Source: Akkermansiaceae bacterium
Lineage (GTDB): Bacteria; Verrucomicrobiota; Verrucomicrobiia; Verrucomicrobiales; Akkermansiaceae
Assembly (NCBI GenBank): GCA_903934285.1
Contig: CAIZNN010000211.1
Location: 1-36,871 of the forward strand
Reading direction: 5' to 3'
DNA length: 36,871 bases
Below the pieces are notes generated by a model. That model saw nothing but the letters and a program-made list of their open reading frames with translations. It was not told the origin of the DNA and did no database searches. Each line of letters opens with the position of its first letter. Position 1 is the first letter of the stretch. This document shows, piece by piece, positions 2,421 through 29,221 of this stretch. Made by a program: the position numbers and the translations under genes.

Positions 2421-2562
2421 GCCCAATACGGTTTACTTAAGACGAGACAGGGACGAGACAGAAAGAGGCGGCGGGCAGGATGCCCGCGCCACAGGTGGCC
2501 CGGGCATCTTGCCCGGAGCCTCGACTCAAACCACCAAGGGTGCTAAGTAAACCGTATTGGGC
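2421..2562. mobile_element. 142-bp palindromic mini-element, copy 1
   Basis: This is a non-autonomous element with perfect 19-bp terminal inverted repeats: GCCCAATACGGTTTACTTA at the left end and its reverse complement at the right. It is flanked on both sides by the 5-bp direct repeat GGGGT (2416-2420 and 2563-2567), a likely target-site duplication. The outer bases GGGC (2412-2415) and GCCC (2568-2571) show that the empty target was GGGC-GGGGT-GCCC. Two perfect internal hairpins with three-base loops lie near 2474-2490 (GCGGGCA-gga-TGCCCGC) and 2499-2516 (CCGGGCA-tct-TGCCCGG). It encodes no protein. A second copy of the same length lies at 28319-28460 and differs at about two positions. Confidence 0.85.
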
Positions 2563-27327: not shown

Positions 27328-28182
27328 ATGCATGCCTGCCTCAACATCCCACGCGCCTGCGTCCGCCCAGCGGTTGGTTTGGCTCTTGCCCTCACCCTTA
27401 GCCATAGCCTCCACGCCGAACCGACCATGCCTGAAACTCCCGCCGATGTAGCCGCCGCACCCGCCGCCGCCACCACAACCGCCTCCGGCCTAGCCTCCAC
27501 CGTCCTGAAAAAAGGCAGTGGCAGTAAAAAGCCGGCCGCCACCGACACCGTCACCGTCCACTACTCGGGCTGGACCACCGATGGCAAACTCTTCGATAGC
27601 TCGGTCAAACGCGGCGAACCCTCCAGCTTCCCGCTCAATGGCGTCATCAAGGGGTGGACCGAAGGCCTCCAGCTCATGGTCGAAGGGGAAAAACGCCGCT
27701 TCTGGATTCCGGGCAAGCTCGCCTACGGTGACGCCGCCGTGGGTGGCCGCCCCGCAGGCACTCTTGTTTTCGACGTGGAACTGCTCAGCATCAAAGAGGC
27801 GCCCAAACCCCCGGCGGTCCCGGCGGATGTGGCCGCCGCCCCCAACGATGCGGAGAAAACCGCTTCGGGGCTGGCCTCCAAGGTGCTCACCAAGGGCAGC
27901 GGTGCCATCCATCCCAAGGCGAGCGATCAAGTCAAAGTCCACTATTCCGGCTGGACCACCGATGGCAAACTCTTCGATAGCTCGGTGTCGCGCGGGCAAC
28001 CGATTGTGTTCGGGCTCAATCAAGTCATTGCCGGCTGGACCGAGGGGGTCCAACTCATGGTCGAAGGCGAAACACGCCGCTTCTGGATTCCCGCCAAGCT
28101 CGGCTATGGCGAAAACCCCGGCGGCGGCCGTCCCGGCGGACTCCTCGTCTTCGACGTGGAACTCATCCAAATCGTCAAATGA
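27328..28182 (+). CDS. Periplasmic double-domain FKBP-type peptidyl-prolyl isomerase
   Basis: The 284-residue protein has a signal peptide (AVGLALALTLSHSLHAEP) and two FKBP domains (about 52-153 and 179-284), each opening SGLAS.VL.KGSG and carrying VTVHYSGWTTDGKLFDSSV, GWTEGLQLMVEGE(K/T)RRFWIP and LVFDVELL. Each is preceded by a PADVAAAP linker. It should catalyse proline cis-trans isomerisation and assist folding in the periplasm. The two halves repeat with a period of 381 bp, and about 37 bases around TGGACCACCGATGGCAAACT are identical, so the duplication is recent or kept uniform by conversion. The gene overlaps the rhodanese gene by ATGA, showing a coupled operon. Confidence 0.92.
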   Translation: MHACLNIPRACVRPAVGLALALTLSHSLHAEPTMPETPADVAAAPAAATTTASGLASTVLKKGSGSKKPAATDTVTVHYSGWTTDGKLFDSSVKRGEPSSFPLNGVIKGWTEGLQLMVEGEKRRFWIPGKLAYGDAAVGGRPAGTLVFDVELLSIKEAPKPPAVPADVAAAPNDAEKTASGLASKVLTKGSGAIHPKASDQVKVHYSGWTTDGKLFDSSVSRGQPIVFGLNQVIAGWTEGVQLMVEGETRRFWIPAKLGYGENPGGGRPGGLLVFDVELIQIVK

Positions 28183-28826
28183 GTTGCGCCGCGATCAGAT
28201 GGATCGCTGCCACTTGCCTCCCTGCCGCCCTCTCATGTAGCGGGCCCACCGCGGTTGGGGCGGCGCACCCGCCTGCTCCCGCGCCTCCCGCAACCTCCGG
28301 TCAGGCGGCGGGCACCCCGCCCAATACGGTTTACTTAAGACGAGACAGGGACGAGACAGGAAGAGGCGGCGGGCAGGATGCCCGCGCCACAGGTGGCCCG
28401 GGCATCTTGCCCGGAGCCTCGACTCAAACCACCAAGGGTGCTAAGTACACCGTATTGGGCACCCCGCCCGCGCCCACACCCGCGCCCGGCAAGGTCACCC
28501 GCATCCAGCTGGACACGTTCTTCCCGCTGCAACAAGCCGGTGCCGCCCTCATTTACGACGTGCGCCCCGGCTTTTCGTTCCGCCGCGGCCACATCCCGCA
28601 CGCCATCAGCTGGCCCAAAGGCCAATTCACCACCCAGCTGGCGGCGCGCGAGGCGGAAATCCGTGCGGCCCGAGCGGCCAGGCGGCCGATCATTGTTTAT
28701 TGCACCGACCTCGCTTGTCCGGATTCCAACAAGATAGCCACCCGTCTGGCGGCACGCGGCCACTCCGTGTCCATCCTTGACGGCGGCTACGCGGCCTGGA
28801 CCAGCGCCGAGTTGCCATGCGAATGA
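28179..28826 (+). CDS. Exported rhodanese-like protein interrupted in frame by a palindromic element
   Basis: The 215-residue product has a weak signal peptide (IRWIAATCLPAALSCSG), a Pro/Ala linker and a rhodanese domain (about 105-212: LIYDVRPGFSFRRGHIPHAIS, IIVYCTDLACPDSNKIATRL, SILDGGYAAWTSAELP). C175 is the probable active-site cysteine, C180 a possible partner. Residues 46-94 are encoded by the 142-bp element plus one 5-bp target duplication: exactly 49 extra codons, inserted between GTPP and TPPAPTPAPG. In the first element copy this frame contains TAA; here the codon is TAC (Y90), so the gene stays open. The signal may be a lipobox-like AALSC. It overlaps the FKBP gene stop (ATGA). Sulfur transfer or persulfide handling in the periplasm is inferred. 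Confidence 0.85.
   Translation: MSCAAIRWIAATCLPAALSCSGPTAVGAAHPPAPAPPATSGQAAGTPPNTVYLRRDRDETGRGGGQDARATGGPGILPGASTQTTKGAKYTVLGTPPAPTPAPGKVTRIQLDTFFPLQQAGAALIYDVRPGFSFRRGHIPHAISWPKGQFTTQLAAREAEIRAARAARRPIIVYCTDLACPDSNKIATRLAARGHSVSILDGGYAAWTSAELPCE
28319..28460. mobile_element. 142-bp palindromic mini-element, copy 2, inside the rhodanese gene
   Basis: Same length and internal orientation as the copy at 2421-2562. The terminal repeats begin GCCCAATACGG and end with its reverse complement; one base in the right repeat is changed (A to C at 28448), which removes an in-frame stop. The 5-bp direct repeats are ACCCC (28314-28318 and 28461-28465), and outer GGGC/GCCC rebuild the target GGGC-ACCCC-GCCC, the reverse complement of the target of copy 1. 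Confidence 0.88.
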
Positions 28827-28900: not shown

Positions 28901-29221
28901 ATGTCCAGCTTCCCTAACGTCACCGTCGATGCCAAAGCCAACATCTATTTCGATGGGCGCGTGGTGTCCCACAGCGTGCATTTCCCCGATGGCAGCAACA
29001 AAACCCTGGGCCTCATCTATCCCGGCGAATACCACTTCGGCACCGCCGCCGCCGAGCGCATGGAAATCATCGCCGGAAATTGCACGGTCGTCATGGACGG
29101 CACCGCGGCGGTTCTAACCATCGCGGCCGGCCATGCCTTTGAGGTTCCCGCCGAGAGCGGCTTCACCATCACCGTCGACGCGGGAATCTGCGAATACATC
29201 TGCTCGTTCCTGCCCGCGTGA
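28901..29221 (+). CDS. ppnP: Pyrimidine/purine nucleoside phosphorylase PpnP
   Basis: The 106-residue protein matches PpnP (formerly YaiE/DUF1255) along its whole length: NIYFDGRVVSHSVHFPDGSNKTLGLIYPGEYHFGT, then ERMEIIAGNCTVVMDG, and the end VPAESGFTITVDAGICEYICSFL. This small cupin phosphorylyses a broad range of nucleosides to free base and ribose-1-phosphate. It is a cytoplasmic salvage enzyme. It follows the rhodanese gene by 74 bp, and its stop codon overlaps a possible GTG start of the next gene. Confidence 0.93.
   Translation: MSSFPNVTVDAKANIYFDGRVVSHSVHFPDGSNKTLGLIYPGEYHFGTAAAERMEIIAGNCTVVMDGTAAVLTIAAGHAFEVPAESGFTITVDAGICEYICSFLPA

Follow-up and report, generated by a model that had tools for sequence, protein, structure and literature searches.

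In-frame "selfish" palindromes within proteins are already known, and best from Rickettsia, where the RPE are small palindromic elements with an open frame that are tolerated in frame inside conserved protein genes (PMC10969869, PMC2229807; statements on these and the other papers cited apply to the portions of them available to us). Guanylate kinase remains active with an RPE insert, the open-frame form of the Correia element (107 bp) is fused in genes and its stop form (155 bp) is almost only intergenic, and ERIC fusions are in frame (PMC2229807). In-frame MITE fusions are described as not unusual (PMC10969869), and the QMITE1/2 families of Coxiella, with ~50 copies, show occasional in-frame insertions (PMC5896051). 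Among the matches listed from the open-licence literature we found no paper on in-frame MITEs in Verrucomicrobiota.

We analysed a 36,871-nt stretch of DNA (the window) in which a palindromic element lies inside a rhodanese gene. Like RPE, its family showed repeated stop-free in-frame insertions in genes, in a sample partly selected by this frame. The host was not Rickettsia: among the best 80 loci, the closest named match of a 465-aa window protein was from Haloferula sp. BvORR071 (91%) and the next from Verrucomicrobiota bacterium JB025 (90%), which agrees with the placement of the family outside Rickettsia in an earlier note on this DNA. Besides the host phylum, the element is set apart from RPE by description through its IS4-type candidate parent and its 11-bp target duplication, versus an entry of "?" for the RPE duplication in the available part of PMC2229807. 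Correia/NEMIS of Neisseria and ERIC of enterobacteria follow a similar rule of open frames in genes and stops between them, with in-frame fusions, but occur in other taxa and have other ends, with TA at the termini (PMC2229807). The QMITE1/2 families, likened here by description and not by ends, belong to a different host. The mechanism is already known, and the window element appears to be an independent case of it, derived from IS4, in Verrucomicrobiota.

The repeated element

The 152 bp at 28314-28465 were part of a repeated mobile element, clearly beyond chance. The flanks and 28 rebuilt empty sites placed the mobile unit at 28322-28457 (136 bp, plus strand), with ends CAATACGG...CCGTATTG; the left terminal inverted repeat CAATACGGTTTACTTA occupied 28322-28337 and the right one, on the minus strand and with a private A-to-C change, 28442-28457. 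In the rhodanese gene this core was bordered by a perfect 11-bp target duplication, GGCACCCCGCC, at 28311-28321 and 28458-28468. Core and duplication together add 147 bp, or 49 codons (PNTVYLRRDRDETGRGGGQDARATGGPGILPGASTQTTKGAKYTVL), with the core in frame among them. The earlier note had divided the same 147 bp into 142 bp of element and a 5-bp duplication; its sum stands as 136 + 11, and its limits give way to those drawn from the flanks of the 28 copies. The second copy in the window was intergenic (2424-2559, plus strand) and had its own duplication, GGCGGGGTGCC, at 2413-2423 and 2560-2570. Both copies, their inverted repeats, their duplications and the dozens of further copies bear out the description as a mobile palindromic element.

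A copy on another contig of the same genome (L022 on C258) was decisive for the limits. It was flanked twice by CCCACGCAGTC, which has no GGC/GCC, so GGC and GCC belong to the target and not to the element ends. Across the 28 window-genome copies with both flanks present (nested and partial copies left out), the duplicated target was 11 bp and usually GGCN5GCC. Such a target recalls the GGGN5CCC of IS231A. The 11-bp duplication had at most one mismatch in 20/28 copies and not in the other eight, one of which (L017) reads as a 10-bp duplication. Copy length was exactly 136 bp in 15/28 and 124, 125, 134, 135 or 137 bp in the remainder.

The window genome (4.80 Mb in 282 contigs) held at least 86 matches to the 152-bp query, 41 of which, among the 86 listed, were long best-orientation copies, the others being shorter or reverse-strand matches to the palindrome. 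Copies number in the dozens, and the true number is uncertain because 40 of 178 first-look candidates were scored and many copies sit at contig ends. Contigs C26, C130, C133, C136, C138, C231, C233, C234, C237, C240 and others start or end in a copy, so the assembly of this genome breaks at the element. A lone inverted repeat at C148:26236 was discarded, there being no complete element there, and an exact 28-base pattern had no match in a genome-contig collection that may omit close neighbours of the window genome. Short length (136 bp), multiple copies, 16-bp inverted repeats, lack of a transposase and a target duplication were the MITE hallmarks found, and by these sequence features the element is classed as a MITE with IS4-family features.

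Relationship to IS4-type insertion sequences

A genome of the same genus (G061) contained a 1456-bp insertion sequence (L132, 252-1707) between a left end CAATACTGTTTACTTAGCAC and a right end AAATACTGTTTACTTAGCAC, the latter with an altered first base. Both flanks were GGCN5GCC, with three differences between their 11-mers. Its single 471-aa ORF matched Nterm_IS4 (2.3e-20) and DDE_Tnp_1 (2.5e-15), and a Y-2-R-3-E-6-K (YREK) motif was recognized by eye in YPERWEIELTIKESK. An IS4-type transposase thus lies between ends similar to those of the element in a relative, and G061 was the only relative in which a DDE transposase with a YREK motif was found between matching ends. For subgroup IS4 of the IS4 family, Table 1 of De Palmenaer et al. 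(2008; PMC2266710), in the part available, gives ends of -AATR--------WTW----, a length of 1400-1650 bp and duplications of 10-13 bp. The window element's ends (CAATACGGTTTACTTA) fit this pattern, and its 11-bp duplications, with the one of 10 bp in L017, fall within the tabulated range; the G061 insertion sequence is alike in its length, single ORF, Nterm_IS4 match and YREK motif seen by eye (PMC2266710). The window element differs in having no transposase, and its apparent place in subgroup IS4 is by features only.

A PF01609 search of the window genome returned no IS4 transposase. With tblastn, N-terminal pieces of a transposase of the G061 type (62% over 29 residues) were found at the ends of contigs C123 and C224, carrying an end, CAATACTGTCAGTTTAAG, that is less similar to the element ends; the rest was probably lost at contig breaks. 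The G061-type insertion sequence is a candidate parent of the MITE. IS4-type ends were seen at 1-175 of C224 (L186) and 1-125 of C123 (L187), the former adjoining a partial MITE copy.

The rhodanese gene and its orthologues

The interrupted gene (28179-28826, plus strand) encodes a 215-aa protein with a rhodanese domain at residues 119-209 (PF00581, 5.8e-13; alignment A1). Upstream lies an FKBP-type peptidyl-prolyl isomerase gene with two FKBP_C stretches (27328-28182, plus strand; PF00254, 1.4e-53), whose TGA overlaps the rhodanese ATG at 28179; downstream, as context only, is a Ppnp gene for a pyrimidine/purine nucleoside phosphorylase (28901-29221, plus strand; PF06865, 1.6e-31). The rhodanese protein reads in the order N-terminal signal (by eye), Pro/Ala linker, insert and rhodanese domain, and sequence and domain position agree with the proposed in-frame insertion between linker and domain.

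Twenty-three orthologues from the same genus shared a layout of N-terminal signal, linker and rhodanese domain; by eye, the signal closes with a cysteine motif and appears lipoprotein-like. Orthologues in distant taxa with the same 49 residues but no element hallmarks had been named in the earlier note as evidence against an insertion, and none of the 23 examined carried them (22/23 in alignment A1, from which L040 was left out). The closest, in G019, is 165 aa long, versus 215 aa in the window. Of the 13 columns that do not vary among the 22 aligned orthologues the window protein keeps 12, and of the 22 columns conserved in at least 20 of them it keeps 19. The one invariant column it has lost holds the signal cysteine, placed one residue earlier in the window protein than in the orthologues.

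Translation from a start behind the insertion was the other observation said to count against the original proposal. The FKBP frame ended at most 32 nt from the chosen start in 23/23 orthologues (starts chosen by script), with a 4-nt ATGA overlap in 13. The codon-usage caller started the filled gene at TTG 28407, inside the insert, and extended it to ATG 28179 when the insert was removed (L001). Since the orthologues have a signal and linker, an FKBP-adjacent start and no 49 codons, translation of the rhodanese probably starts upstream of the insertion and so runs through it. Orthologue signal and FKBP position thus favour the upstream start, and the caller's preference for the later one stands against it. 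In the predicted structure the insert region had a pLDDT of 45-59 and the rhodanese domain 76-93; this is weak evidence that the insert is disordered, because the whole N-terminal 100 residues were low and the insert columns have no relatives.

Loss of the in-frame stop

The second copy has TAA at 2548-2550 and the rhodanese copy TAC at 28446-28448, by one A-to-C change that comparison with the consensus confirmed. This change, at element position 127 (28448), was the only difference between the rhodanese copy and the consensus, was unique to it among 25 ungapped copies and removes the sole stop in the frame of the rhodanese gene. The consensus has one stop in each of five frames and two in the sixth, so that none of the six is open. 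The frame used in the rhodanese gene is opened by 7 of 408 possible single substitutions (1.7%) and was open in 2/25 ungapped copies, namely the rhodanese copy (L001) and an intergenic one (L070). We regard a loss of the stop beyond chance as suggestive; the change is one base in one fragmented genome. That the stop was repaired after insertion, as first proposed, goes too far: the A-to-C change may have come before the insertion or after it.

Copies in and between genes of the window genome

In the window genome, 25/28 copies with both flanks lay between genes and three inside a called gene: the rhodanese copy (C211) and those on C176 and C258. In the window, 0.79 of bases were called coding, as were 44/56 GGCN5GCC sites and 5/9 GGGCN5GCCC sites. 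Given these coding shares of bases and target sites, the element is depleted from genes.

The C176 copy (L010, 1505-1640, minus strand) had a perfect 11-bp duplication and was in frame in an ORF fragment, and the stop of its own frame, another than the rhodanese frame, was changed from TAA to TAT. The fragment lacked both a Pfam match and a clear start, which shows that an open frame can also arise where no gene is evidently functional. The C258 copy (1501-1637) was identical to the consensus and lay inside an FGE-sulfatase-like gene (1e-07, partial query), which is cut by the element's stop and, by eye, also frameshifted beyond the insertion. The own-frame stop was lost in both the rhodanese and the C176 copies. 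From the per-frame open rate of 22 non-genic ungapped copies, at least two of three genic copies being open has P ~0.0015, a value from small numbers computed after the fact. A 538-aa open frame through L070 on C41 was considered as a second intragenic case and rejected; the gene caller puts the copy between genes, and we take the frame for an antisense shadow.

In-frame insertions in other genomes

DNA matches to the element occurred in 20/99 genomes including the window's own, several of them to the central palindrome only. Outside the window genome, 23 copies had both flanks, and 11 of these overlapped a called gene. Five of the 11 were stop-free in the same frame (PNT...TVL) as the rhodanese copy, each adding 133 + 11 = 144 bp. 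Two were in the rRNA methyltransferase RsmE, in genomes G051 and G073; they lie at the same place and therefore count as one event. The others were behind the Wzy_C domain of an O-antigen ligase-like protein in G105 (2.5e-13), 17 codons before the end of a lysyl-phosphatidylglycerol synthase-like LPG_synthase_C protein in G051 (5.9e-93; L265), hence a tail insertion, and between a signal-like start (by eye) and the first domain of a Rha78A-like protein in G068 (7.9e-41). We are less sure of the last, the weakest of the set, because its frame stops early, at 439 aa, and the start chosen by the caller lies after the insert. When the element was present, the caller put the start after it in L362 and L382. 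These further in-frame cases, in genes of related species, go beyond what the window alone could show. 

A further five of the 11 genic copies carried stops in the gene's frame. Four were at gene edges and were set aside (L064 502/515, L204 407/421, L380 476/512 and L387 440/483 aa, called with the element), as was L069, which has a stop, is out of frame and has its ORF end within the element. L201 was set aside as uncertain. Window genes served to train the gene caller. Because loci outside the window genome had been selected by matches to the DNA, the ends or the peptide in the frame used in the rhodanese, the five clean genic copies among 23 ("clean" includes being stop-free) are not an unbiased rate. 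Several other long open frames at tblastn hits (G069:C35, G061:C233, G051:C7, G061:C171 and others) were rejected as in-gene cases for want of two-sided same-strand codon support or as antisense by eye; L269 had positive codon scores on both sides, yet was set aside by eye. The tabulation of copies by frame and stop that the earlier note had called for thus found same-frame, stop-free genic copies elsewhere; it gave less in the window genome, where 3/28 copies were genic and, of these, the C258 copy bears a stop and the C176 copy lies within an ORF fragment.

Outside the window genome the PNT...TVL frame was open in 11/16 copies, in and outside genes and some of them partial (18 rows minus the window-genome copies L217 and L224). 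It is open there because the ends are often GTTGACTTA or similar and not GTTTACTTA, and therefore no stop needed repair in those species. The form amplified in the window species has TAA, and there the rhodanese copy is an exception.

Constraint on the RsmE insert

RsmE was matched in 64/73 genomes of the genus. Among the matches listed, only the G051 and G073 proteins align through residues 167-208, and the insert was absent from the 26 other RsmE orthologues in alignment A2 (L247 and L255 left out). Between G051 and G073, 112/135 bases of the insert and 587/702 of the flanks were identical. The insert had a dN/dS of 0.56 (bootstrap pN/pS 0.29-1.39) versus 0.17 (0.15-0.31) in the flanks. This reads as tolerance with little constraint, weak at most or absent. 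The RsmE insert had a pLDDT of 42-58 in the structure prediction, and both it and the rhodanese insert are predicted to be disordered.

Origin and fate of the rhodanese insertion

Our preferred and, we believe, probable explanation is an in-frame MITE insertion, tolerated and read through, in the rhodanese linker. An IS4-type transposase would have inserted the 136-bp non-autonomous element at a GGCN5GCC site within the linker of the rhodanese, a secreted protein and probably a lipoprotein. The 11-bp duplication would have made the addition 147 bp and kept the frame, and with the sole in-frame stop changed the gene would be translated through, its protein gaining ~49 residues of flexible linker. 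The insertion would persist because it is tolerated, with translation of the domain behind it maintained by selection. The element belongs to a family found across part of the genus, and some of its copies sit inside other genes with the frame open and kept. There is good support for a tolerated in-frame insertion from the element and its duplication, the insert-free orthologues, the open frame and the same-frame insertions elsewhere; from these, and from the transposase between similar ends in a relative, we infer movement by such a transposase, translation in vivo, and tolerance instead of a benefit.

True domestication would mean that the rhodanese has acquired from the 49 residues a new property, such as anchoring, spacing or partner binding, and that the peptide itself is selected. 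The rhodanese copy's single change from the consensus is exactly at the stop, and the rsmE insert has remained open since two species diverged, which both speak for it, but the inserts are of low model confidence and probably disordered, and the higher dN/dS of the rsmE insert than of its flanks argues that constraint on the peptide is weak or absent. We consider domestication unlikely; the word, used in the earlier note, goes too far in the sense of a gained function, for disorder is predicted in the inserts and that of rsmE is under weak constraint at best. It is quite unlikely that the gene is instead decaying into a pseudogene with a frame open by chance. The protein keeps 12 of the 13 orthologue-invariant columns and the frame spans the whole rhodanese domain, chance opening by one substitution stands at 1.7%, and other same-frame insertions exist, against which can be set the shifted signal cysteine and some intergenic copies with an open frame of their own (L002, L070).

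Very unlikely, too, is a restart of translation inside or behind the insertion, which would make the open frame of the insert irrelevant. In-frame TTG codons do occur in the insert and the caller prefers the one at 28407, but the same caller returns to ATG 28179 once the insert is removed, the 23 orthologues keep the N-terminal signal and linker with a start at most 32 nt from the FKBP frame end, and a restart leaves the stop loss unexplained. That the 49 residues are an old, merely element-like part of the protein is barely credible: we found no support for it, and the perfect 11-bp duplication, the inverted repeats, the many intergenic copies and the absence from the 23 orthologues all speak against it.

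A broader idea, which we offer as a tentative possibility, is that an IS4-derived MITE family in Verrucomicrobiota is a recurrent donor of flexible protein segments. Core plus duplication is a multiple of three in the main forms (136 + 11 and 133 + 11), and one frame, which is naturally open in most of the copies sampled from other species than that of the window, is the frame found in genes. Pro/Gly/Ala-rich segments would be placed in linkers, loops and tails and behind signal sequences, and the stop in the window species' amplified form would have been returned to open by one base in the rhodanese copy. To the in-frame palindromes already described, this family adds a clear target duplication, an IS4-type candidate parent, insert-free orthologues, another phylum and an rsmE insertion common to two species. 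Whether such segments are tolerated or useful becomes testable in ordinary enzymes (RsmE, rhodanese), and annotators are warned that extra low-complexity stretches in Verrucomicrobiota may be transposon remnants. A mobile element appears now and then to add floppy segments to proteins in this bacterial group.

The central palindrome

The stem of the element contains two GGGCN5GCCC palindromes (28371-28383 and 28400-28412). The predicted RNA fold of the element is a single long hairpin (-72 kcal/mol, z -8.3) that ribosomes would need to unwind. The internal palindromes are themselves possible target sites. Nested or tandem copies or pieces were seen in L077 (C14), L083 (C260), L085 (C216) and L009 (C234). 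The central palindrome (GGCGGGCAGGATGCCCGCGCCAC...), which we take to resemble a REP element, also occurred between quite different flanks (...GGATGAGACC... / ...GGTCTCACATGATTT) in L102 (C49, 1188-1240) and L084 (C277), as if one hairpin module were common to two element families.
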